From Parachlamydia sp. AcF125 (GTDB lineage Bacteria > Chlamydiota > Chlamydiia > Chlamydiales > Parachlamydiaceae): 64,000 bases of DNA. The notes under the pieces are model-generated. The model saw only the letters and a program-made list of their open reading frames with translations, was not told where the DNA came from and did no database searches. The stretch lies in NCBI RefSeq assembly GCF_018342475.1, contig NZ_JAEMUD010000001.1, forward strand, positions 310,001 through 374,000, read 5' to 3'. Position numbers and translations under genes: made by a program. The first letter of the stretch is position 1; the number at the start of each line of letters is the position of its first letter. Of the stretch, positions 39,630 to 54,400 are shown in pieces.

Positions 39630-41177
39630 TTAATGCTGAACAGATTGGGAAGCATCGGTTGAACGCTTATGTACCGGCTTGCAAAATAAAAGTATAGGGA
39701 CCATGCAGATAAACGTCCAAGCCACAATCCAAGACAAATCATTGGTCGCAAGCATGTGAGACTGCTGGGCAATTTGCCTATCCAAGGCTTGATCAATCAC
39801 ACTTCTTGTGAAAGCTGTAGAAACATGTGGAAGCTGCTCATAAAGCTGGGCTATTGCGGGGTGATAAGAAGTGGCCAATTCCGTTAAGCGACCATGGTGA
39901 AAGATTTCAAGTCGATCCCACAAAGCCACCGATAAGGAAGTCCCAAAGCCGCTTCCCACTAAAATACGAATAAAATTAAACAGCCCAGAAGCTCGGGCGT
40001 ATTCTTCATTGGGAATATTTCCTAGCGATAATTGGACTAAAGGAATGAAAAATAACGCTAATCCAATCCCTTGGATCAATCTCACGAACATAATATGTTG
40101 AATGCTTATTCCTGAAATAAAATGGGCTTGGATAAAAAAGCCCAGAGAAAAAAGGGCGAAACATAACGCTGTCCATAACCTCAAATCTAAGCTGTGTAGG
40201 TATTGACCTATAAAAAAGCTTAAGAGAACAGGAAAAATGCCAATCGGAGCAACGGCAAGTCCTGCACGGTAAGCCGTGTAACCTTGCGCCGTTTGCAGCC
40301 ACAAAGGAACCACCACAGTACTTGCAAAAAAAGCCAAATAGCCAAGAGTTGTAATGATTGTGCCTAATGTAAAATTGCGGTAAGCGAAAAATTTAAAGCT
40401 GACAATAGGATAGGGTTGATAGAATGTCCAAACAATAAAATAGGAGATAGCAATGAGGGATACAATTCCCAATATGCAAATCACATGGGAATCAAACCAA
40501 TCTAAATCTTCTCCCTTGTCTAGCATCACTTGCAAACAAGCGACCCCAATACTCAGAAGAAAAAGGCCGGTCCAATCGATCGGATTGCGCACAATTTCAC
40601 TCTCACGATCGCTTAATAAAAGGGCTACCATGACGCCTGAAAAAATCCCAATGGGAACATTGATATAAAAAATCCACGGCCATGAGTATTCTTCGGTCAA
40701 GTATCCCCCCAAAATAGGTCCCACCACGGGCGCTACAACCACAATCATGGACCAAAATCCTAGGGCTGCCCCCCGCTTTTCAGGAGGATTGTTTGTCACG
40801 ATCAAACTCTGTGATAAAGGGATTAAAGATCCTGCGACAGCTCCTTGTAGGACTCTAAAAAAAACTAAAAGGGTCAAATCTGTGGCCAATCCGCACAAAA
40901 AAGAGGTTAGGCTAAATAAAAATACCGAATAAACGAAGAGCTTCACTTTTCCAAAATAATCGGATAGCCATCCTGTCAAAGGAAGCACAATCGCATTGCT
41001 GGCAGCAAAGGAAGTAATCACCCAGGTACCTTGATTTGCACTCACGGCTAAAGAACCTGCAATATAAGGAATAGCGACGTTTGCAATGGAGGTATCTAGA
41101 ATCTGGATAAACGTGCCCAACCCTAAGGCAATATTTAACAATAATAGCCTAGAGCCTGTCAGTAAATTATCCTTCAT
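39630..41177 (-). CDS. emrB: DHA2-family multidrug MFS transporter (EmrB-like)
   Basis: 515 residues with about 14 membrane helices, as in the drug:H+ antiporter-2 family. Motif A appears as GWLSDYFGKVKLF (about 60-75), motif C-like segments as APVVGPILGGYLTEEYSWPW, and the N-terminus has the family LDTSIANVAIPYIAGSL. It would export hydrophobic drugs or fatty acids across the inner membrane, powered by protons. It overlaps emrA by 11 bases and completes a tripartite pump with that adaptor and the outer-membrane factor. Confidence 0.92.
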   Translation of the reverse strand: MKDNLLTGSRLLLLNIALGLGTFIQILDTSIANVAIPYIAGSLAVSANQGTWVITSFAASNAIVLPLTGWLSDYFGKVKLFVYSVFLFSLTSFLCGLATDLTLLVFFRVLQGAVAGSLIPLSQSLIVTNNPPEKRGAALGFWSMIVVVAPVVGPILGGYLTEEYSWPWIFYINVPIGIFSGVMVALLLSDRESEIVRNPIDWTGLFLLSIGVACLQVMLDKGEDLDWFDSHVICILGIVSLIAISYFIVWTFYQPYPIVSFKFFAYRNFTLGTIITTLGYLAFFASTVVVPLWLQTAQGYTAYRAGLAVAPIGIFPVLLSFFIGQYLHSLDLRLWTALCFALFSLGFFIQAHFISGISIQHIMFVRLIQGIGLALFFIPLVQLSLGNIPNEEYARASGLFNFIRILVGSGFGTSLSVALWDRLEIFHHGRLTELATSYHPAIAQLYEQLPHVSTAFTRSVIDQALDRQIAQQSHMLATNDLSWIVAWTFICMVPILLFCKPVHKRSTDASQSVQH

Positions 41178-42420
41178 GGCAATCGACTTGGGAAACAGTT
41201 GTAAAAATGGAGTGAATCATTTCATCCATGCGAGCATTTAATTCCGTAAAGTCAAGTTCAAAAACACCTGTAACACCAACCGGCTGAGCTTTAATTTCCT
41301 CTACAAGCATGGGTAAAGAAGTATTTGCAATATCCACCGTCACGAAAGCTGAAAGCCCTAATCGCAAAGGAAATTTCTTCATTTTCTCAACGTCTAATCC
41401 AATTCTCACAGGAAGTCTTTGGACAATCTTGATCCAGTTCCCTGTGGCATTTTGAGGGGGTATTAAGGAAAAAACACTTCCTGTACCTGATCCTATGCCT
41501 AAGACTTTCCCCTCAAATTCGACACCTTTCCCATAAATATCAAAGGTCACAGTCGCTGGCTGCCCTACTCGCATATGGGTAAGCTCTGTTTCTTTGAAGT
41601 TGGCATCTACCCACATATAATCTTGCGGAATGATTGCCATTAAATTGCTTTGAGGTGTCACCGTTTGTCCAACCTCCACTGTTCGTTTAGCGATATGTCC
41701 TCGGCAGGGCGCATAAATTGAGCAGTGTTTTAAATGATAATAGGCCTGTCTTACCGCTTTTTTTTGCGCCAAGAGAATAGGGTGCTCTTCCCTGGGAGTA
41801 TTCCCTGCAGCATCAAGGGCCACTTGCAATTGATCAAGAGCTTGTTGGTAGTCCAGTTTGGCTGTCATAAATGCATCCCGCGAATGTACGTAATCCTCAT
41901 TGGTAACAGCTTTAAGATCCACCAGGTTTTTTCTATTCAAAAAGTCATACTGGGCCCGCTGTAGTTGAACCTTTTTATTTTCTACAGTAGATTGGCAAAC
42001 CTTTACTGTATCATACATTTGCATCACTTGCAGGGCTGCGGAAGATAACTTAGCTAGTTCTTGCTCATATTGAATTTTGTAAAGAGTTGGATCTAACAAG
42101 ACTAATAGTTGCCCCGCCTCTACTAAATCTGTATCATCTGCAAAAAAGGCAATCGGAGTTCCTGAAATCGCAGGAGTTACCTTGACCAGATTTCCATTCA
42201 CATACGCATCATCTGTCGATTGATAAAAACGGAAATGAAATAACCATAACAATAGCCAACACAAAGCAATCAGTAAAATCGCGCTTGTCAAAAGGATGAG
42301 CGGTTTTTTTTTGGAGTTTGCACTCTCAGTTAATGGCTTGCGGCTTTCATCCGATGGAGTTAAAGCTTCTTTGGAAGGCCCGAGTTTTTTTTCAGCAAGA
42401 GTTTGTTTTGATTTTGTCAT
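41167..42420 (-). CDS. emrA: EmrA-like membrane fusion protein
   Basis: 417 residues: a charged N-terminal cytoplasmic tail, one membrane helix at about 39-61, the DDAYVNGNLVKVTPAISG hairpin start (biotinyl-lipoyl domain), a long alpha-hairpin (about 110-215) and a beta-barrel part including VDANFKETELTHMRVGQPA. It bridges EmrB and the outer-membrane factor in the periplasm. Its ATG overlaps the stop of the upstream outer-membrane gene in an ATGA, so the three proteins are translated together. Confidence 0.92.
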   Translation of the reverse strand: MTKSKQTLAEKKLGPSKEALTPSDESRKPLTESANSKKKPLILLTSAILLIALCWLLLWLFHFRFYQSTDDAYVNGNLVKVTPAISGTPIAFFADDTDLVEAGQLLVLLDPTLYKIQYEQELAKLSSAALQVMQMYDTVKVCQSTVENKKVQLQRAQYDFLNRKNLVDLKAVTNEDYVHSRDAFMTAKLDYQQALDQLQVALDAAGNTPREEHPILLAQKKAVRQAYYHLKHCSIYAPCRGHIAKRTVEVGQTVTPQSNLMAIIPQDYMWVDANFKETELTHMRVGQPATVTFDIYGKGVEFEGKVLGIGSGTGSVFSLIPPQNATGNWIKIVQRLPVRIGLDVEKMKKFPLRLGLSAFVTVDIANTSLPMLVEEIKAQPVGVTGVFELDFTELNARMDEMIHSIFTTVSQVDCHEG

Positions 42421-43907
42421 GGCGTTTTCTCTTCACAGGTATCATAACCGCCCCCTAATGCTTTTATTAAATTAAGTATGGCGGACAGGGTGTTATTAAG
42501 AGATACAGCTTCATTATCTAAGGCTGTAAGATAAGTTTCTTCGCTTAAATGCACGTCTAGAAGTGAGCTTAAATGATTTTTGCTCCTTTGGGTAACAAGC
42601 TCGAGCGCCTGTTGTTGAAGTTGGACATCTCGCCTAGCCTCCTGCAAACGCATATAACTTTGCTTGACAATCACCAGGGCCTCCAGCACTTCTTGAACAG
42701 CATTAATCACTCTTTGATTATATTCATAAATGGCTAGATCATAATTGGCTTCACTTCCTCGCAGATTGGCAGTCAATAAGCCTCCATCGAAAATAGGCAA
42801 ACTGTAGGCTGGTTCAACCTCATAAACTGAACTCCTGGCTTCAAGCAATTTTCTCAAATGGGTGGTCTGAAAGCCCAGAAGAGTGGCTAAATTGAAATCG
42901 GGATAAAATCCTGCCTGTGCAACTTGGATTTGCCTACCCGCAGATTCAATCATCCAAAGTTGGGCCACAATATCTGGACGATGGGCAATTAAATGCAACG
43001 GCAAAACATGTGGTAAAGGAATGGTAGGCAACGCTTTATTTTCAATCAGAATAGAATCGATGGAGGTATCGAATTCTCCGCCTATAAAACCTAGCACTTG
43101 TAGCTCATCCTGGCAGGCAGTTTGTATCCGTTCAGACAAAGTTTGCTTGGCTGCCGTTAAAAGGCCTTCTGCTTGAAAAAGGTTTAGATCACTATCCAAA
43201 TGATGCTCAATACGCTGTTGGATTAATCCCCGATTTTTTTCCTGCAGGTCGACAAGTTTTTGAGCTAGCTCTTGCCGATAACGATCAATTTGAAGCTGGA
43301 AATAAGATTGAGCAAGCGAAATACTCACAGTTAATTCAGTAAAAATCTTGTCGGCTAAAGTTGCCTGTAATTCGCCAAGAGCGGCTCGATAGGTATTTCT
43401 GCGTTTTTCCCAAATGTCAAAATCAAATGTTAAAAAGAAATTAAAATCGTATTGGGTAAAATAAAAAGGAATTTTTACTGGCAACAGCGGAGTTCCTCCC
43501 ACAGGTGAGGAAGAGGCTTCCGATGGAATTAAAGAGTTTTTACTTAATTTTCGCCGTTGAACATCCGCTTCATGGTAAACATTCGGATAAAGAGAGGAGC
43601 GTTGAGCCTCTGAACGATAGAGCGCTGAATAAACCCGCGATTTTGCAGATTGTAACGTTTGATTGTGACTTAAAGCTTTTTCCATTAAGCCGTTGAGTTG
43701 CTCATCTTGAAAAAGGGTCCACCAGTCTTGGGGAACCCATTCAGCTTTTTCAAACAAAGGGAGGTCTTCCACATCTTTAACTGCTTTTATCAAAGGAGCA
43801 TCGCCGATTTCAATTTTTTTAGCAGAGGGAGAGCGGTTTGAACAACCGCACAAAAAGGCCCAGCAAAAAAGTATACTGGTTAAAAGTTGCATGAGTTTTC
43901 GGTCCAA
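42417..43907 (-). CDS. Outer-membrane efflux factor (NodT/TolC-type lipoprotein)
   Basis: 496 residues. The N-terminus is a lipoprotein signal with lipobox LCGC (Cys22; the -2 Cys is unusual), followed by the typical WWTLFQDEQLNGLMEKALSHN and two TolC-like alpha/beta repeats with barrel segments (ARSSVYEVEPAYSLPIFDGG). It forms the outer-membrane duct of the pump with EmrA and EmrB. It is the first gene of that operon and starts 78 bases after the kdpD stop on the same strand. Confidence 0.92.
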   Translation of the reverse strand: MDRKLMQLLTSILFCWAFLCGCSNRSPSAKKIEIGDAPLIKAVKDVEDLPLFEKAEWVPQDWWTLFQDEQLNGLMEKALSHNQTLQSAKSRVYSALYRSEAQRSSLYPNVYHEADVQRRKLSKNSLIPSEASSSPVGGTPLLPVKIPFYFTQYDFNFFLTFDFDIWEKRRNTYRAALGELQATLADKIFTELTVSISLAQSYFQLQIDRYRQELAQKLVDLQEKNRGLIQQRIEHHLDSDLNLFQAEGLLTAAKQTLSERIQTACQDELQVLGFIGGEFDTSIDSILIENKALPTIPLPHVLPLHLIAHRPDIVAQLWMIESAGRQIQVAQAGFYPDFNLATLLGFQTTHLRKLLEARSSVYEVEPAYSLPIFDGGLLTANLRGSEANYDLAIYEYNQRVINAVQEVLEALVIVKQSYMRLQEARRDVQLQQQALELVTQRSKNHLSSLLDVHLSEETYLTALDNEAVSLNNTLSAILNLIKALGGGYDTCEEKTP

Positions 43908-43985
43908 GGTGCCTATCCTATGAAAAAAACGATTTATTTTTTTTACATAAGCAAATCCTTCTTTTTTGTCTCTTAATTTATTAAA

Positions 43986-46619
43986 TTAAATTTTTACAGG
44001 GAGATAGAGAGAGAATTTTGCTCCTCTGGCGGGCAAATTTTCTACTTTTAGCTTTCCTTTATGCGCCTCAGCAATCGTTTTAGCAATGGCTAGCCCTAAC
44101 CCCATACCAGAGCCAGTTTCTTCAGGCAAACGGAAAAATTTCTCGAAGATCGTTTCGAGTTGATCGTCGGGGATTCCTTTACCCTCATCTGCAACTGAAA
44201 TGACAATATAGGAATCAGACTTTTTCGCTTCGACTTTAACCGTTGAGCCTGAGGGAGAATATTCAAATGCGTTGAGAAGTAAGTGATAGAGCAATATTTC
44301 TACCAAACAAACATCGAGGGAAATTAAAGGCAAGTGATCTTCAATATAAATATTCAAGGTGTGCCCTTTTTGCCCTTTTTTCACATTGAAACAGCATTCG
44401 TGAATTAATTCTTTGATATCTTGTAAGCTTAAATTTAAAGTGACGATCCCCTCACTAAGCTTTACCATGGCTAAAATGTGGGTTAATCTCTTAGAAAGAG
44501 TTTCGGCTGCCTCATCAATTTGGTGAATTTCTTTGCTTACTGGATTTCGAGTTTTTAGCATTTGAGCGGAAGCTTGAATGCGGGCTATCGGAATGCTAAA
44601 TTCACAGGAAATTTTTTCTAAAATTGTCTTGTGAATTTTTTCGATTAACTTCAGCTGTTCGTGCTGCTTAACTTCTTCTTCCGAAAAAGTGCGCTCTAAA
44701 TAAGCGGTTAATTGTCCGATGATAGTATAAATAAAATTTTTCTCCTCAAGAGACAAATTTTTTTGGGTCTCAGATTTGAAAACAAGCACTCCCACCATAC
44801 GATGTAATCCTTTAAGAGGAAAATAAAGATTTCTGGCAGAAGGCAGCGTTTCGGTAGACCAACCAGCTTCTTTGCCATTTTCGAATACCCATCTAGCTGT
44901 ATTCTTTTCTAACTCGTTAACTAATAGCTGATTTGAAGGATCGAGTTTTAACCCGTTTCCCAATTGCTTAACTAAGATCTCAAATTTCCCCTTAAAAAAC
45001 CGCTCTAATTCTTCTTTAACTGAGTTAAAGATCTCTTGAGTGGTAGGTCCACTCCCCATTTTTTTTACCACATCATACAATAAACGGGTCATCGCTTCAT
45101 TTTTTTGAAGCATTTCTTTGTGAGCCCTGGCCCGATCGACTAAAACTCCTGTCGATATCGCTGTAATCACATACAAAGCAACTAAGGCCATGTCTTCTTT
45201 TTTACTCATTTCGAAAACAAACAGGGGAGGAATAAAAAAAGCATTCCAATATACGGCAAATAGAAGGGAAGCAAAAATGACGGGCCCTTTAGTGAAAAAT
45301 AAACTTAAAAGCAAAATTCCTAATAAGTAAATAATTCCTACTGTTTCATATCCAATAAAGGGAACGAGGAAAAAATTGGCTAAATTTAATAAGCCCGCCA
45401 AGCCAAATACCCAGATATAACTCATCCAAGGAACTTTAAAAAAGGGGAAAAAGCTGATTTTTTTTGAGTACGAGGCATCCTTATCTTTCCTTAAAATATG
45501 GATATCTACTTCTGGACATTCGGCTGCTAAAAGGTCAGGCAGAGAAAAATAAGTAGCTGTACCAAAGAGCTTTTTTTCCAAGGAGTGTCCCAAAAGAATT
45601 TGCGTAACGCCTCTTTGCCTAACAATGCTTTGAATGGCTTCTGAAAGACTGGGATTTTTTATTGTCACCACCTCTGCGCCTAGATTGCGGGCTAACTGCA
45701 AATTGTAGGTCAATTGCTGGATAGCTTGCTCATCTAAAATCCGATTATCATTTACATATAAGGCAATCCAGGGGGCATCAAAATGGACTGCCATACGGCA
45801 TGCTCGGCGAATAACTTTTTGAGAGTAAGGGCTTGGACTAACTGCCACCAGAAATTTTTCTCTTGCACGCCAAGGGACACGCCGTTCACTGCTGGGCTCC
45901 ATGTGCTGTAAATCTCGATCGACCTTATTTGCCACATATCTGAGAACAATTTCCCGCAATGCGGTAAGCTTGTCTTTTTTAAAAAAATTTTGAACTGCGA
46001 GCTTGGTTTGATCTTGAAGGTAAATCTTCCCTTCTTTTAAGCGTTGCAGCAATTCATCTGGGGTTAAATCCACAAGGTGAACAGAAGTGGCTTTTTCAAT
46101 GATCGAATCTGGAACAGTTTCTTGAACCGCAATTCCCGTAATTCCCAGAACCACCTCTTTTAAACTCTCGATATGCTGCACATTTAAAGTGGTATAAACA
46201 TCCATTCCATGCTCTAATATTTCGAGCACGTCTTGCCACCTTTTAGGATGCCTTAAACCTGGAGTGTTGGTATGAGCAAGCTCATCGACAAGTACCACCT
46301 CTGGTCTTAAATGCAGGATAGCATCCAGATCCAATTCCTGAAATTCTCGATTTCTATAAGCAATCATTTTTGCTGGGATCTTTTTCAAGCCTAATACCAA
46401 GGCAGAGGTCTCGCTCCTCCCATGTGTATCTACGCTCCCAATGACAACATGCGCCCCTTCTCTTTGGAGCGCATGAGCTTCTTTAAGCATCGTATAAGTT
46501 TTTCCTACCCCAGCAGCCATGCCCAAGAATATTTTTAGTTGGCCTTTATCTTTGCTCTCTTGCGCTTCTGCTATCTTTAAAAAATCTTCTGGAGGGGGGC
46601 GCTGCTCTTGCTCACTCAT
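43986..46619 (-). CDS. kdpD: KdpD-type sensor kinase without the phospho-accepting His
   Basis: 877 residues, as in E. coli KdpD: the N-terminal KdpD domain with Walker A-like AAGVGKT (35-41) and DELAHTNTPG, a universal-stress-protein domain (about 250-375), four membrane helices (about 395-495), a GAF-like region, and the kinase core. The ATP-binding boxes are intact (N box LLLNAFEYSP, DEGKGIPDD, FEKFFRLPE, GMGLGLA). The H box, normally S-H-D/E-L-R-T-P-L, reads ISCEFSIPIA with Cys672 (codon TGT) at the place of E. coli His673. Autophosphorylation as known is thus not expected. No kdpE follows; the next gene is the efflux factor. It starts 8 bases after kdpC. Confidence 0.95.
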   Translation of the reverse strand: MSEQEQRPPPEDFLKIAEAQESKDKGQLKIFLGMAAGVGKTYTMLKEAHALQREGAHVVIGSVDTHGRSETSALVLGLKKIPAKMIAYRNREFQELDLDAILHLRPEVVLVDELAHTNTPGLRHPKRWQDVLEILEHGMDVYTTLNVQHIESLKEVVLGITGIAVQETVPDSIIEKATSVHLVDLTPDELLQRLKEGKIYLQDQTKLAVQNFFKKDKLTALREIVLRYVANKVDRDLQHMEPSSERRVPWRAREKFLVAVSPSPYSQKVIRRACRMAVHFDAPWIALYVNDNRILDEQAIQQLTYNLQLARNLGAEVVTIKNPSLSEAIQSIVRQRGVTQILLGHSLEKKLFGTATYFSLPDLLAAECPEVDIHILRKDKDASYSKKISFFPFFKVPWMSYIWVFGLAGLLNLANFFLVPFIGYETVGIIYLLGILLLSLFFTKGPVIFASLLFAVYWNAFFIPPLFVFEMSKKEDMALVALYVITAISTGVLVDRARAHKEMLQKNEAMTRLLYDVVKKMGSGPTTQEIFNSVKEELERFFKGKFEILVKQLGNGLKLDPSNQLLVNELEKNTARWVFENGKEAGWSTETLPSARNLYFPLKGLHRMVGVLVFKSETQKNLSLEEKNFIYTIIGQLTAYLERTFSEEEVKQHEQLKLIEKIHKTILEKISCEFSIPIARIQASAQMLKTRNPVSKEIHQIDEAAETLSKRLTHILAMVKLSEGIVTLNLSLQDIKELIHECCFNVKKGQKGHTLNIYIEDHLPLISLDVCLVEILLYHLLLNAFEYSPSGSTVKVEAKKSDSYIVISVADEGKGIPDDQLETIFEKFFRLPEETGSGMGLGLAIAKTIAEAHKGKLKVENLPARGAKFSLYLPVKI

Positions 46620-46627
46620 CGTGCTTC

Positions 46628-47200
46628 CTACCTCTCATCCAATACATCCAAAGCCTGATTAAGGAGAAGGACATTGACATGAGGTTCTCCTAAAATGAAA
46701 AAGCGGGGTGGGATGGTAAGTTCTTGAAGCAATTGAATCAGGCTGTTTTCAGCTAATCCTCTTGCTTTCGCCACTCGGGGGATTTGAAATCGAGCAACAT
46801 CCAGGCTGATGTGGGGATCTATTCCACTTCCCGAAGTGAATAGCAATTCTGCGGGTACTTGGGAGGTATCCACTTGGTGGGCACTGGCCATTTTGCTTCT
46901 TCTTTCTTCGATCGTTTTAACAAGAATTTTACTAGTAGGACCTAACTGACTGCCTCCTGACGAAAGGGGATTATAGTCGACAGCAGAAGGACGCGGCCAA
47001 AAATAACGCTCACTTTCAAATTTTTGTGCAATGAGGAGGGCGCCTAAAGCTTTACCTTCCTCTCTGATGATTCCTCCGTTTGCTTTGTCTTGCATCCCCA
47101 CTTGAGCAATGACTGTAATCATTAAAGGATAGAGGATTCCTAAAACCAAAAGCATCCAAATGAGCATCCGAAAAGCTTGAACAAAGAGATTCATACCCAT
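46628..47200 (-). CDS. kdpC: Potassium-transporting ATPase subunit C
   Basis: 190 residues with one N-terminal membrane helix (about 10-32) and a periplasmic domain carrying the conserved [24 protein letters not shown] (split motif), [11 protein letters not shown] and [11 protein letters not shown]. It stabilises the KdpFABC complex and raises K+ affinity. It overlaps kdpB by 10 bases. Confidence 0.97.
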
Positions 47201-49284
47201 CCTAAAAAAGTAATCGCCAAATCAATCAGCTTGATTCCAAGGAAAGGAACGATCATTCCCCCAAGTCCATAGATTAAAAGATTATTTCTCAATAAATCAT
47301 GAGCAGATTGAGCGGTATATTTAACACCTCGCAACGCTAGGGGGATCAAGGCCACAATCACTAAAGTATTAAAGATTAAGGCGCTCAAGATTGCACTATG
47401 AGGGGATTGTAAATGCATGAAATTTAGGATCGACAAAGGGCCTTTTTGATTTGGAGCAGCCGCATATAAAACCCCGAATATCGCGGGGATAATGGCAAAA
47501 TATTTGGCCACATCGTTGGCTATGCTAAACGTGGTCAAAGCCCCTCTCGTCATCAGCATCTGCTTGCCAATTTCAATAATTTCTATCAACTTAGTTGGAT
47601 TGCTATCCAAGTCAATCATATTTCCCGCTTCTCGCGATGCCTGCGTGCCTGTATTCATCGCTACGGCCACATCAGCCTGGGCCAATGCAGGTGCATCGTT
47701 TGTTCCATCACCGGTCATAGCCACCAGCCTTCCCCCTGCTTGCTCTGCCTTAATTTTGGCTAGCTTCATTTCGGGAGTGGCGTCAGCGATATATTCATCT
47801 ACACCTGCTTCTGCCGCAATAGCAGCAGCCGTCATGGGATTATCGCCGGTTACCATTACAGTGCGAACGCCCATTTTACGCATTTCTGCAAACCGTTCTT
47901 TAATTCCACCTTTGATGACATCCTTCAAGTGAACAATTCCTGCAATTTTATCTTGATCGCTTACTAATAAAGGAGTCCCACCTTTATGGGCGATCGATTG
48001 GATCCCAGCATCTAAGTGAGGAGTATATTTTCCACCTAAACTCAAAACGTGCTTCTTAATTGCTTCTACAGAACCTTTTCTGATTGAACGAAGTACTTTC
48101 CCTTCGTTATCTTTAAAGTCGATTCCACTCATCCGGGTTTTGGCAGAAAAGGGAATGAAAGTTGAGGCTCCTGCTTCAACGGTTTCTCCTCTCAGACTAA
48201 ATTGATTTTTTGCCAAGATTACGATAGAGCGCCCTTCTGGGGTCTCGTCAGATAAAGAGGCTAGCTGTGCAATTTTGGCAAATTCTTTCTCCTCCATGTC
48301 TGTAGCAGGTAAAAAAGCTACAGCCATTCTATTTCCGATGGTGATTGTGCCTGTTTTATCTAAAATCAACAGATCGATATCTCCCGCAGCTTCCACGGAG
48401 CGTCCGCTTAAAGCGATGACGTTTCGTCTAATAAGCCGATCAATTCCCGCAATTCCTACAGCATTTAAAAGAGCGCTAATAGTTGTGGGAATTAGGCATA
48501 CAAGTAATGCGGCTAAAACAGGGATAGTTAAAATTTGGGAAAGGTCTTGCTTTGCTGCATAGCTACTGTAGTCCCCAAACATTTTCAAGGAGCATGTCGC
48601 CAATAGAAAGACAAAGGTTAAGCCAGACAAAACAATACTTAAAGCCACTTCGTTGGGGGTTTTTTGTCTTTTGGCGCCTTCGATAAGATGGATCATTTTA
48701 TCTAAAAAACTCTGTCCCGCATCTGAAACGACCTTAATTTTTAAACGATCACTTAAAACTTTTGTTCCCGCTGTCACAGCACTTCGGTCCCCTCCGCTCT
48801 CTCGAATAACTGGAGCGGATTCCCCCGTAATAGCAGATTCATCCACAGTGGCAACCCCCTCAATGACTTCTCCATCTGCAGGGATAAGATCGCCCGCCTC
48901 GCAAATCACCATGTCCCCTTTTTTCAACTGGTTACAAGGAACCTTAATTGCTATACCATTGCAATCTTGTTTGGCAAAGATCTCGGTTTTAGCTTTTCTT
49001 AAACTGTTTGCTTGAGCTTTTCCCCGGCTTTCTGCAATGGCCTGGGAGAAATTTGCAAAAAATAAAGTGAGCCACAGCCAAAGGGTGATTTGGAAGTCAA
49101 ATCCCGTTAAGTTTCCATAAAAGAGTTGCGATAAAACATACAAAAAAGTTGCAAAGGCTGCTACGTACGTCACAAACATGACGGGATTTTTAATTTGCGC
49201 TTGTGGGGTAAGCATACATACCGCTTCTTTTAAGGCCTTAAATACCCCCTTTGCATCTAAAATATTTCCTTTTTTTGGTGGCAT
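47191..49284 (-). CDS. kdpB: Potassium-transporting P-type ATPase subunit B
   Basis: The energising subunit of the Kdp pump. At 697 residues it holds the P-type ATPase features: actuator TGESAPV, phosphorylation site LILDKTGTI (Asp309), ATP-binding [10 protein letters not shown], hinge [18 protein letters not shown] and [20 protein letters not shown] split over the motif. The seven membrane helices are in the expected places. The inhibitory Ser of TGES (Ser162 in E. coli) is present. kdpA precedes with a 6-base gap. Confidence 0.98.
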
Positions 49285-49290
49285 ACTTCC

Positions 49291-50982
49291 TCAAAATGAC
49301 ATTTTTTGTAGCATTAAAAGGTGCTCTGCGAGGGGCCCTAAGGTAAGAGCAGGAAAAAATGTGAGCCCTCCTATAATCAAAATTATGCCTCCCAAAAGGA
49401 TAGCAAATAATAAAGACTCAACCGAGAAAGTCCCCATTGACGGAGGAATGGCTTTTTTTTCTGCTAACAACCCCCCAATCGCTAGGCTGGGTAAGAGGGT
49501 TGAGCCTCGGCAAATCAACATGACCGTTCCCAGCATTAAATTATAATAGGGAGTATTTGCATTTAGGCCGGCAAAAGCACTCCCATTGTTTCCTGCAGCC
49601 GAAGAAAAAGCATATAAAATTTCAGAAAGCCCATGCGGTCCCTGATTTGAAATGCTGCTCAAAGCTGTAGGTAAAATGCTTGTAATCCCCGAACCGAGTA
49701 AAATCAAAGCACTTGGCGTCAGGACAGAAAGCATCACCCATTTTACTTCTCTTGCCTCAATTTTTTTGCCTAAGTATGCGGGCGTCCTTCCTACCATCAA
49801 GCCCGAGAGAAAAATCGTTAAGAGGGTATACATCAGCAGTGCGCATAAACCCACCCCGATTCCTCCAAAAATAAGTTCTCCTAGCATAAGGTTGAACAAG
49901 GCGCTCCCTCCGGCCATTGGAGAAAGGCTTGAAAGCATGGCATTAACAGAGCCGTTGGATGTTCCCGTGGTGGTTACGCTCCATAAAAGACTATTTGCAA
50001 GCCCGAAACGGGTTTCTTTGCCTTCCAAATAAGGTAAGCTATTCAAAAGGGGGTTTGCTAAATTTTCTGCATAAATAGACACGCCAAGACTCCCCATCCA
50101 TAATGTCAACATCAGCGCATATAAGATCCAGGCATGCTTTTTAGAACTAATCATGAGGCCATAAGCATAAACTGTAGCAGCTGGAATGATCAATAAGGCA
50201 AACATTTCCAAAAAGTTGGTGAATGCCGAAGGATTTTCATAGGGATGGGCACTATTGGCGTTAAAAAATCCTCCCCCATTGGTTCCCAGCTGCTTTATAG
50301 CCACTTGCGAAGCAACAGGACCCAGAGGGATCATCTGCTTATTTCCCTCCAATCCAATTGTTTCCACATAAGGAGAGAGCGTTTGCACAACCCCTTCATT
50401 CACAAGAAAAATGGCAAAGAGGATAGAAAAGGGCAACAATAAATAGACAATCGTTCGAACAAGATCGCGCCAGAAATTTCCGACTGTTTTCTCCCCTTGG
50501 CGAGTCATTCCTCGCATCAACACAAGCAATGTGGCCATTCCGGTGGCAGCGCTTAAAAAATTTTGAGTGGTTAACCCCAACATTTGAGCCAAGTAGCCTA
50601 ACGTGGTTTCTCCTGCATAAGATTGCCAATTGGTATTCGTGACGAAGCTTATGGCTATATTATAAGCCAGATCACCTGATATGCCTGAAAAATGTTGGGG
50701 ATTGAATGGAAGAAAGCCTTGCATAAGCAAAAGAAAAAAAAGAAATAAAAAACCCCATAAATTAAACATCCCTAGGGCTTTAGCATATTCTTTCCAGGTC
50801 ATTTCAAGTTGAGGATCCACCCCAGCCGCCCAATAACAGCTTTTTTCCAGCCATCCCAAATAACGCTTCACTACCGTTTTTTTATCGGAAAAAATATCCG
50901 CGATATAGTGCCCGAGTAAAGGAGTAACGAGAAGAAGGAGCGCTATAAATACGAGAATTTGTATCCCATCCAAAGACGACAT
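49291..50982 (-). CDS. kdpA: Potassium-transporting ATPase subunit A
   Basis: 563 residues with about ten membrane helices. It is a K+ channel-like subunit with four selectivity-filter loops, seen as NWQSYAGE (loop 1), TNGGGFFNANSAHPYENPS (loop 2), TTTGTSNGSVN (loop 3) and AAGNNGSAFAGL (loop 4), the conserved Gly-rich segments of the family. It passes K+ into the chamber used by KdpB. An in-frame kdpF lies directly upstream. Confidence 0.98.
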   Translation of the reverse strand: MSSLDGIQILVFIALLLLVTPLLGHYIADIFSDKKTVVKRYLGWLEKSCYWAAGVDPQLEMTWKEYAKALGMFNLWGFLFLFFLLLMQGFLPFNPQHFSGISGDLAYNIAISFVTNTNWQSYAGETTLGYLAQMLGLTTQNFLSAATGMATLLVLMRGMTRQGEKTVGNFWRDLVRTIVYLLLPFSILFAIFLVNEGVVQTLSPYVETIGLEGNKQMIPLGPVASQVAIKQLGTNGGGFFNANSAHPYENPSAFTNFLEMFALLIIPAATVYAYGLMISSKKHAWILYALMLTLWMGSLGVSIYAENLANPLLNSLPYLEGKETRFGLANSLLWSVTTTGTSNGSVNAMLSSLSPMAGGSALFNLMLGELIFGGIGVGLCALLMYTLLTIFLSGLMVGRTPAYLGKKIEAREVKWVMLSVLTPSALILLGSGITSILPTALSSISNQGPHGLSEILYAFSSAAGNNGSAFAGLNANTPYYNLMLGTVMLICRGSTLLPSLAIGGLLAEKKAIPPSMGTFSVESLLFAILLGGIILIIGGLTFFPALTLGPLAEHLLMLQKMSF

Positions 50983-50995
50983 GCCTGCTACCTTT

Positions 50996-51085
50996 TCAAA
51001 ATTTTTCAGGGTGTAACACGGTATAAATCAGATAAACTAAAAGAAGCATGACAATAATGCCTGCGAAAATAAAATGGGTGGGCAT
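50996..51085 (-). CDS. kdpF: Kdp complex small subunit F (29 aa)
   Basis: A 29-residue frame starting with ATG at 51085 (AAGGGGA just upstream) and ending TGA at 50996. It is one membrane helix (IFAGIIVMLLLVYLIYTVL) followed by HPEKF, the C-terminal end typical of KdpF (x-x-P-E-K-F). It stabilises the KdpABC complex. Position directly before kdpA fixes the call; it is easily missed because of its size. Confidence 0.92.
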   Translation of the reverse strand: MPTHFIFAGIIVMLLLVYLIYTVLHPEKF

Positions 51086-51269
51086 ACTTCCCCTTGAGAT
51101 CAATATCGGCCTTAACGAATATGAATAACAATTCTGCTAAAAAATTGCAAAATTTTTTTATATATTTTACGGTTCAAAATGAAGGTTAAGAAATGCCTTA
51201 CCATCCGTTTAATTAACCCTTAAATGCCCTATATTTCGATGATTAGAGCCCCTCTATACCCTATTCACT

Positions 51270-51320
51270 CCTTAATCCCTTAACCAAACAGATGTGAGGA
51301 ATTAAGGCTTTTTTATTTTA
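51270..51320 (+). promoter_or_regulatory. Hairpin with T-run in the leader region of the giant gene
   Basis: CCTTAAT (51270-51276) pairs with ATTAAGG (51301-51307), and two further pairs form across a bulge; the 3' arm continues into CTTTTTTATTTTATT. On the plus strand this has the shape of an intrinsic terminator, but no plus-strand gene lies upstream. It could insulate the giant gene from kdp antisense transcripts or act as an attenuator. The remainder of the gap (51086-51432) is AT-rich and holds the kdp promoter region, in which I see no convincing boxes. Confidence 0.4.
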
Positions 51321-51432
51321 TTCGAAAATCTATTCTAACTGGCTGCTTTCCGGATTAGATTTTTCTTACTTTTAAATAAAAAAAATAAAAGTTATAATTT
51401 TTCTTTTTTTTTGTTATAAATTAAGGCTTTTT
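51300..51432 (+). repeat. Direct repeat of 14 bp flanking the giant-gene leader
   Basis: AATTAAGGCTTTTT occurs at 51300-51313 and again at 51419-51432, immediately before the ATG of the giant gene, where its AAGG is the ribosome site. The copy upstream is part of the hairpin with T-run. The repeat may be chance in AT-rich DNA, or mark a duplicated leader. Confidence 0.5.
51393..51398 (+). promoter_or_regulatory. Predicted -10 box for the giant gene
   Basis: A perfect TATAAT at 51393-51398 lies 35 bases before the ATG at 51433; the -35 region at 17 bp (TTTTAA) is poor. Transcription would start near 51405. The surrounding A/T-runs make chance matches likely. Confidence 0.35.
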
Positions 51433-54400
51433 ATGAAATCGGTCTCGCGCAAAAAAGATCACCTGAATGCTTCGTTAAATTGCATCGCTCCAACTGTCAA
51501 AAACAAAAACTTTTGGATTCGTCCAATAGTCCAAACTTGTTCAACTATTTCCCTTTACCTTAAGCGTATTTTTTATTTAATCCTTTATCGAGAGTGGCAT
51601 AACAACCAAAGCGCCCTCAAAATTGTAAGGTATTACTCTTATAAGGCCAAAGCGGCAGAAAAAACCCCTGAAAAAATAAAAAAAGTCGAAGCAATTTTTC
51701 AAAAACTTTCGCTTTTAAAAAAAGATAAGCAGCTCAAATTAAAGGGTCTTAATCTTTCTTTGCTGCAAGCCAGCCAAGCTAATGAGGCAGGCGGAACAAC
51801 GCTCAAATTTCCGCGCATAAAAAAAATGCCAACCATTACTGCGCGAGAACTTTTTCATATTCACGGCAATGCTTTTGGGGCAAATAACAATTCTCTTGAG
51901 GGTTCTACCCTCCAAACCACGCTCAGCTATTTGCAGCTTTTTTTCACAAAGCGCCAATCGCAAGGGCTACCCTGCTACGGTTTAACAGAGGATCATTTGC
52001 GCCAGCTTGCCGATGCGGTCGAACTGGCCCGCGATTTTAAAAAGCATAGCTTAGCCAAAATCACGACCGCCTTTGAACATCAAAAACGCTTATTGCTCCC
52101 GGGCGGATGGACGGGTTTACCTGCTGGCCATGCGATGTGCTATGAAATTATTCCCACCTCTTATCAACAAGCAACCGTGAGAGTCTTTAACCTAGGAGCC
52201 GGCTCTGAGAAGCATTTTCGTGCGCTTGTCGGAAATAAAGTTAAAACTCTACCTTATGTCGATTTTGTGGGAGTTTCGAAAGAAGCTCTCACCGATCCCC
52301 ACACTTTACAAGCTCTCTACGAGCTTTTAACTTATGCTCTTCTTCCGGAAGATGAAAGCCAAAAAACAAAATATGGCACTGAAGATATTTATACCGGGAT
52401 CATATCTTTATTAAAGCCAGATAAAATGAATTATCCGGAGAACCCTCCTGCCTTAGATTTGCTTAAAACGCCCCAGCGTGCCGGCGTTTGCAGCATGCGC
52501 TCACCCCTGGTTTTTCTATCCACATGCATGCCTAAGAAGGCTTACAAACAATTCATTTGCGATCTACGGATGCAAAGTCTGTGCGATTATATCAGCCAAG
52601 TGCAAGATAGAGCTTTGACAAATGCAAACTGGCGCTTATTAGAAAAATCGCAAACGAATTTAAGCAAAAGAATTGCAAAAAACCTAAAAAACTCTATTTT
52701 AGACGAGCAATATGCCCTGAGTTCGGCCGCCAAATTGACAAAAATTTCCCATTTCCTGAAGGGCAAAAGAGATCAGGCCTTGTGCTCTCAAACAGCTTCT
52801 GCAAATGATAATCCAGGTTTTGAAATAAGAAGTGTTCATCTTCCGAAGGACTTAAGTACTCCTTTACATCTGTTAGCGAATGAGCAAAATAAGCCAGTCT
52901 CCCAATCTTACTCCTTTGTATTTCATGCCGTTAATCAACTGGATTCAAAAGATTTAACTCGTTCGCTCCCCGTGCTTATCCAACTGGCTGAGGAGGCTAA
53001 AGGTAGACAAGAATATCTGGCTTTGCACCATGCCCTTATCCATTTTTTTTCAAAAATACCTGTATTAGACACTTACCAGCTCACTGAGACTGAATACAAA
53101 CAGCTCCTCACGCATTTGGGCAAAATTTCCGAAACTTTCTTTGAAACGTGTTTTCGGGTACCCAACCCTGAACGAATTCATCCAGAACGCTTGAATGTTT
53201 TGCTAAAAATTTTATACATGCAAAAACGTCTGATAGGATTTGAGGGAAATTTAGATTTAGGCTGTTTACGTTCTTCCTCTCCAAAAGACTCTTTGCTACA
53301 ACCATTTTTCTTTAAAATTCTCGACTTCGAATTGCAGCGAGAATTTTACAATACGTTAAGTTTTTTTGATTCCTCCGCCGTTGAACACTGTTGGGGGAAG
53401 ATGAGGCTCGATTTTTATCCAAACGGCGCTTTTACAAATCAATTGCCCAAGCTTTTCCCAGAAATCTCAAAAGAGCTAGCTAAAGAAAATGCTCAGTTTC
53501 TCTGTTTAAATGAAATAGGGCAAGCTGCATGCATTTATGCCAGCGATAAGCTTCCTGAGTGGTTCAAAAGCTTTAGAAATACCCATTTATATTTTCTTTA
53601 TCTAAGTCACGGAGAGGCTATCAATCCTCCTACAGATAAGCTAGATTGCTCTATCTCATTTGATTTAACACATTCTTCACACGAATCAATCGTTAAGTTT
53701 TCAATAAAAGGCATTTCTGAAGATAAATTTCAGGAGCCAAATTTTCAAAAAAATAAAGAGTATTTTGAAAATTTAGTAAGACCGATCCAAAACCCTGAAT
53801 TAAAAAAAATTACCGACTCTTTTTTAACTCGGAAATATTCCAAGGAATCAGAATTACTGAGCGATCATGTGAATAAACATTTTGAGGGGGTTTCGGATGA
53901 GTTGTACAAAATGCTCCGCCATATCCATATTCATCCACATCTCCAAATTTCCGAAACGTTAGCCTATTTTGAAAAAAATCCTAGCAAACTACACGATCCC
54001 GATTACCAAGTTCTTTTAGAAATTTTTTTCTTCCAGGGAAAGCTGCTAGCCAAGGAAATACAACTTCAGGGATTTGTTGGCCTGCTTGGAAATTTTTTAA
54101 GGCGTAACTACCAATCTGCCTGTGATAAAAATGCTATTCAAACAGCTGTATTTATATTAAAAATGCGCCGTTTATGCCAAGATTATCTGAGAGATGATCC
54201 CATTTTTGGTTATGAGCATCCCCTCTATGCTGACACATTCGATGACTTAAAAAGCCTTCTACGCCATGAAAACTTATCGGTGGAAGAAAAGAGCGTGATC
54301 CATGCCGAAATTGTGTCTCTGTTGTCAAGAAAACAAGATTTAGACCAACAATCAATTAAAGATTTACTTATAGGATCTTGCTATCTTCAACGCTATCCTG

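Follow-up and report, generated by a model that had tools for sequence, protein, structure and literature searches.

The N-terminal domain of E. coli KdpD phosphorylates KdpB at Ser162 and inactivates the K+ pump independently of H673, and H673A KdpD still phosphorylates KdpB (Silberberg 2024, PMC11018627). The same study reported that KdpDs without histidine kinase (HK) function dominate in species lacking KdpE, named Campylobacterota and Archaea for HK loss, and described a short Deinococcus KdpD (DgKdpD) as a serine kinase activated by c-di-AMP. HK loss in KdpE-less species is already known from that work. KdpD homologues in Chlamydiae are listed by Moscoso et al. (PMC4686210), in the accessible part of that paper without discussion of the His. 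New with respect to the open-access literature searched are the loss of the His by point substitution, repeated across the phylum, and the purifying selection acting on the His-less module.

We compared these systems with the KdpD encoded in a 64,000-nucleotide stretch of Parachlamydia sp. AcF125 (the window). With E. coli KdpD (PMC11018627) it shares the order KdpD domain (atypical serine kinase, ASK)-Usp-TM-(GAF-like)-DHp-CA, the position of its gene after kdpC and all tested ASK residues but W39, which is Tyr in the window; in contrast to E. coli, the acceptor His and kdpE are missing. The HK-less KdpDs (the short KdpD/Usp protein of Deinococcus and the truncated DHpCA forms of Campylobacterota and Archaea; PMC11018627) and the NF038185 family likewise keep the ASK domain, have lost the HK and have no KdpE, but the window protein is full-length, with a point loss of the His and an intact CA domain. 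Caulobacter DivL, a pseudo-histidine kinase, also combines a histidine-kinase fold lacking the His with a retained CA domain; unlike the window protein it has no ASK or Usp domain and acts within a live regulator network (PMC4211667). S. aureus KdpD, with a c-di-AMP-binding Usp domain, has the AxSxS element and the motif Tyr in common with the window protein, which lacks the Asn-(Tyr/Phe); the S. aureus protein signals via KdpE (PMC4686210, PMC8214093).

The kdp locus of the window

The window carries kdpA-B-C-D in that order (43986-50982), with the following features.

43986..46619, minus strand: kdpD, 877 aa, ATG start (PF02702, 306 bits)
43992..44297, minus strand: CA (HATPase_c) domain with intact N, G1, F and G2 boxes
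44415..44654, minus strand: DHp-like helices without the His, H-box Pro677 kept
44604..44606, minus strand: TGT codon of Cys672, where the acceptor His would stand (H673 in E. coli)
45102..45419, minus strand: DUF4118 membrane domain
45480..45920, minus strand: linker and Usp domain, AVSPS-X20-WIALY, resembling in part the c-di-AMP motif of PMC4686210 and PMC8214093
45921..46547, minus strand: KdpD (ASK) domain, residues 25-233, catalytic residues kept in 39/39 homologues
46281..46286, minus strand: Walker B Asp112-Glu113 (E. coli D109/E110)
46497..46523, minus strand: Walker A-like GMAAGVGKT (G-X5-GKT)
46628..47200, minus strand: kdpC
47191..49284, minus strand: kdpB, the proposed target (TIGR01497, 948 bits)
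48817..48819, minus strand: Ser156 of the KdpB TGES loop, proposed phosphorylation site, equated with E. coli Ser162 via the TGES motif
49291..50982, minus strand: kdpA

Both the PF02702 domain (cut-off 26.1 bits) and linkage to kdpABC identify the protein as a KdpD; of the attributes of a functional histidine kinase it has the CA domain and lacks the acceptor His and KdpE. The H box reads LEKIS-C672-EFSIPIA, and HisKA matched at E = 0.14, under the Pfam cut-off. The claim of the sequence-only reading that Cys672 replaces the H-box His was correct in reading frame, coordinates and motif, and the codon (44606-44604) is indeed not one base from a His codon, since reaching CAT would take two changes and CAC three. 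Its description of the ATP-binding boxes (N-box Asn, DEGKGIP and GMGLGL; HATPase_c 83 bits) and the N-terminal domains (KdpD 306, Usp 33 and DUF4118 61 bits) as intact also held. The structure 2r8r is a solved relative of the ASK domain (E = 2.3e-72), and NF038185 (KdpD_non_kinase) covers residues 7-376 with 346 bits, under its cut-off of 550. A scan of genome contigs gave one match, to the CA region only.

As first noted, no response regulator adjoins kdpD and efflux genes follow it: a NodT-type outer membrane factor and EmrA-/EmrB-like genes (39630-43907) lie directly after kdpD, likewise on the minus strand. The gene order kdpABCD-oprM-emrA-emrB-proS recurs in genome G001 of the same genus (L096) and was not seen in other neighbourhoods. 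Upstream of kdpA, the other strand carries a 2946-aa ORF (51433-60273). No credible Rfam match to a c-di-AMP riboswitch, as found at kdp in B. thuringiensis, was obtained in 43500-51600.

Acceptor position and domain conservation across Chlamydiota

The comparison covered 39 KdpD sequences from 37 chlamydial genomes, most of them drafts. The acceptor His is kept in only 2 of the 30 KdpDs with a residue at this column, those of G001 (CAC) and G028 (CAT). The other 28 carry R (6), N (5), Q (5), K (4), L (3) and then C, T, V, F or A. With His this makes 11 residue types, and the column ranks 14th in variability among the 80 of DHp; the H-box Pro is present in 30/31. Nine of the 39 have no residue there: six end within a contig without reaching the module (G018, G030, G035, G079, G080 and G115), G013 ends early within the module, G083 is truncated at the edge of its contig and G101 carries a deletion. 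Sequencing error at the Cys672 codon is unlikely, since His loss is common across the phylum (28/30, window included); the genome's two other transmitter-matching kinases retain their His (NASHELKTP and SVAHEIRNP). Cys occurs in the window alone, which argues against a conserved Cys chemistry, and the position is free to vary.

Leaving out the kinase module gave a tree with a weakly supported backbone, in which the His-bearing KdpDs sit inside one well-supported 12-row clade. The window KdpD (G000) and that of G001 are sisters (100/100 support), so the loss in the window would be recent and within the genus, assuming no regain. The His is present in the E. coli and Rhizobium outgroups; an Embleya outgroup was left out, having no H box recognizable by pattern. 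If ancestral, as in these two outgroups, the His would have been lost several times, in a number that the weak backbone does not fix; under equal-cost parsimony three changes including regain would be allowed, a history that we consider unlikely. In Tajima relative-rate comparisons the window KdpD evolved faster than that of G001 with one outgroup (P = 1.3e-5) and less clearly so with two others, and the result was not used as evidence.

The serine kinase site showed no such freedom. G30, G36, K37, T38, D109, E110 and R190 (E. coli numbering) do not vary in any of the 39 sequences, so that the tested Walker A and Walker B residues are identical throughout; in the adenine pair (W39/R190), W39 is replaced by Y or F in 38/39 and by H once, the Tyr of the window being likewise aromatic. 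The ASK domain is the most conserved part of the protein, with a mean pairwise identity of 0.67 (DHp 0.29, CA 0.36) and a mean column entropy of 0.93 bits (DHp 2.26, CA 2.02). Selection on the kinase module was measured by Nei-Gojobori counts with a codon bootstrap. DHp+CA gave a dN/dS of 0.085 (0.046-0.144) for G139/G140, both with Gln, and 0.175 (0.087-0.312) for G002/G031, both with Leu and with an ASK value of 0.033; the window versus G001 gave 0.097, with dS near saturation. The His-less module is thus under purifying selection, dN/dS lying well below 1 in the two pairs whose members are both without the His.

KdpD was found almost only together with KdpA (37/42 genomes), commonly in the order kdpABCD, and 169/234 genomes have neither. 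KdpA without a detected KdpD occurs in 23 genomes (some incomplete; G019 has a KdpD fragment), so KdpD control is dispensable, useful rather than required. The kdpD gene lies apart from kdpABC, with kdpA elsewhere, in G028, G012, G002, G031 and G015 (L097, L098, L100, L102 and L103). G107 has two complete kdpABCD operons (L118, L119) and G010 two kdpD genes (L023, L131) with two kdpA matches, all four KdpDs being His-less. In G003 and G032 (L133, L134), of one genus, kdpD is in several pieces, with and without a kdpA match.

Response regulators and input signals

The absence of kdpE, at first judged from the neighbourhood, extended to the whole 2.58-Mb genome (99.96% complete; PF03504, a chlamydial outer-membrane family, matches there and in 0/14 control genomes). 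Four REC domains were identified, none of them KdpE. One belongs to a PhoB-like winged-helix regulator and one to an NtrC-type regulator encoded next to its own kinase; the remaining two are part of a CheA-like hybrid and of a REC-cyclase. The only winged-helix regulator scored 216 bits as PhoB versus 124 as KdpE. BLAST searches with E. coli KdpE and the window genome's regulator revealed no response regulator beside kdpD in the kdp neighbourhoods. Winged-helix domain searches yielded at most one per genome, except in G015, and 38/39 loci compared encode PhoB-like proteins that share 65-100% identity with the regulator of the window genome, the exception again being G015. As these winged-helix regulators form one PhoB-like lineage, His-bearing G001 is also without KdpE; in G028, the other His-bearing genome (63% complete), no winged-helix match was found.

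The sequence-only reading had proposed that control might run through another ligand, and c-di-AMP acting via the Usp domain would be one. Two c-di-AMP motifs are given in PMC4686210 and PMC8214093, SxS-X20-FTAxY and the structural (A/G/C)xSxSx2N(Y/F). The window Usp element comes close to the former and departs from the latter, with Ser at the Asn position and no Asn-(Tyr/Phe); the AxSxS part is present in 22/39 KdpDs, window included. A diadenylate cyclase gene was detected in 46/49 genomes searched, again including that of the window, and together with the near-match this makes c-di-AMP a plausible input. K+ sensing via the membrane/GAF-like region is the alternative.

Probable post-translational pump control and its alternatives

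We consider it probable (roughly 0.7) that the window KdpD is no longer a functional histidine kinase and acts as a serine kinase that phosphorylates the KdpB TGES loop and shuts off the K+ pump, its His-less DHp/CA being kept as a pseudokinase part. The N-terminal kinase would modify KdpB of the adjacent pump under the control of the membrane/GAF-like region, the Usp domain or both, and the His-less module would serve in dimerization and ATP sensing. The observed base comprises the His loss, the absence of kdpE, ASK residues that do not vary, a kdpD gene linked to the operon in most genomes, and purifying selection on the His-less module; the kinase activity and its KdpB target are proposed by analogy with biochemical work on the E. 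coli and Deinococcus proteins (PMC11018627). The TGES motif has a catalytic role in P-type ATPases, so the presence of the target Ser does not discriminate between readings. The suggestion of phosphorelay-free control, for example by direct contact, fits this reading, the N-terminal serine kinase acting on KdpB being the candidate.

Alternatively, the loss of kdpE might have left the C-terminal module to decay slowly, with the whole KdpD on course to disappear. Pointing that way are the several lineages whose KdpD ends before DHp, the 10/31 long homologues that have lost catalytic CA residues and the weaker constraint on DHp+CA than on ASK in G002/G031. We nevertheless regard decay as unlikely, given the dN/dS far below 1 in the two both-His-less pairs and the 21/31 long KdpDs that retain all six core CA residues tested, 19 of them His-less; strong conservation of ASK and Usp argues against decay of the protein as a whole. 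The earlier argument from intact boxes against simple decay stands for the window gene and these pairs, but not for all homologues: some have lost catalytic CA residues and at least six end before the module.

It is improbable that the His-less KdpD still partners a PhoB-like or other response regulator as a DivL-type pseudokinase or phosphatase; T at H+4 is linked to phosphatase activity, and the window has Ile there. Such a role would suit the intact CA domain, the solved DivL (4q20), a His-less kinase, among the window KdpD's structural relatives by sequence, and the many REC proteins of some Chlamydiota (24 in G025); DivL itself is an example of a repurposed kinase able to sense a regulator (PMC4211667). 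However, the PhoB-like regulator occurs also in chlamydiae without KdpD, and in the window genome a separate 588-aa non-KdpD kinase could serve it. Least probable by far is that in this species Cys672, or some other residue, takes the phosphate in place of the His or works as a redox switch: ATP could be bound by the CA domain and Cys may act as a nucleophile, but Cys is found in 1/30 at a position that also takes Leu, Val, Phe and Ala, and His714 of the window, considered as a substitute acceptor, is a private change at a DHp helix 2 column that is usually Asn.

Post-translational control by a serine kinase remains the best reading for chlamydial KdpD in general, transcriptional control having been lost and KdpABC inhibition kept: the His is gone from almost all KdpD-bearing chlamydiae, the serine-kinase residues are retained, and direct pump shut-off has probably replaced gene control. 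More tentatively, the HK module may now be maintained across Chlamydiota as a pseudokinase that binds ATP and exerts allosteric control over the N-terminal serine kinase. These genomes provide a natural experiment on which KdpD kinase activity selection keeps, with the His replaced in 28/30 and the serine kinase site invariant. The outcome supports a proposal made in 2024, that of the two activities of KdpD the serine kinase one is the more fundamental (PMC11018627), and chlamydial KdpDs offer naturally separated proteins for testing that primacy. For chlamydial proteins the annotation 'sensor histidine kinase KdpD' is misleading; if the pseudokinase reading is true, a two-component sensor would have been turned into a one-protein, post-translational switch for the K+ pump.
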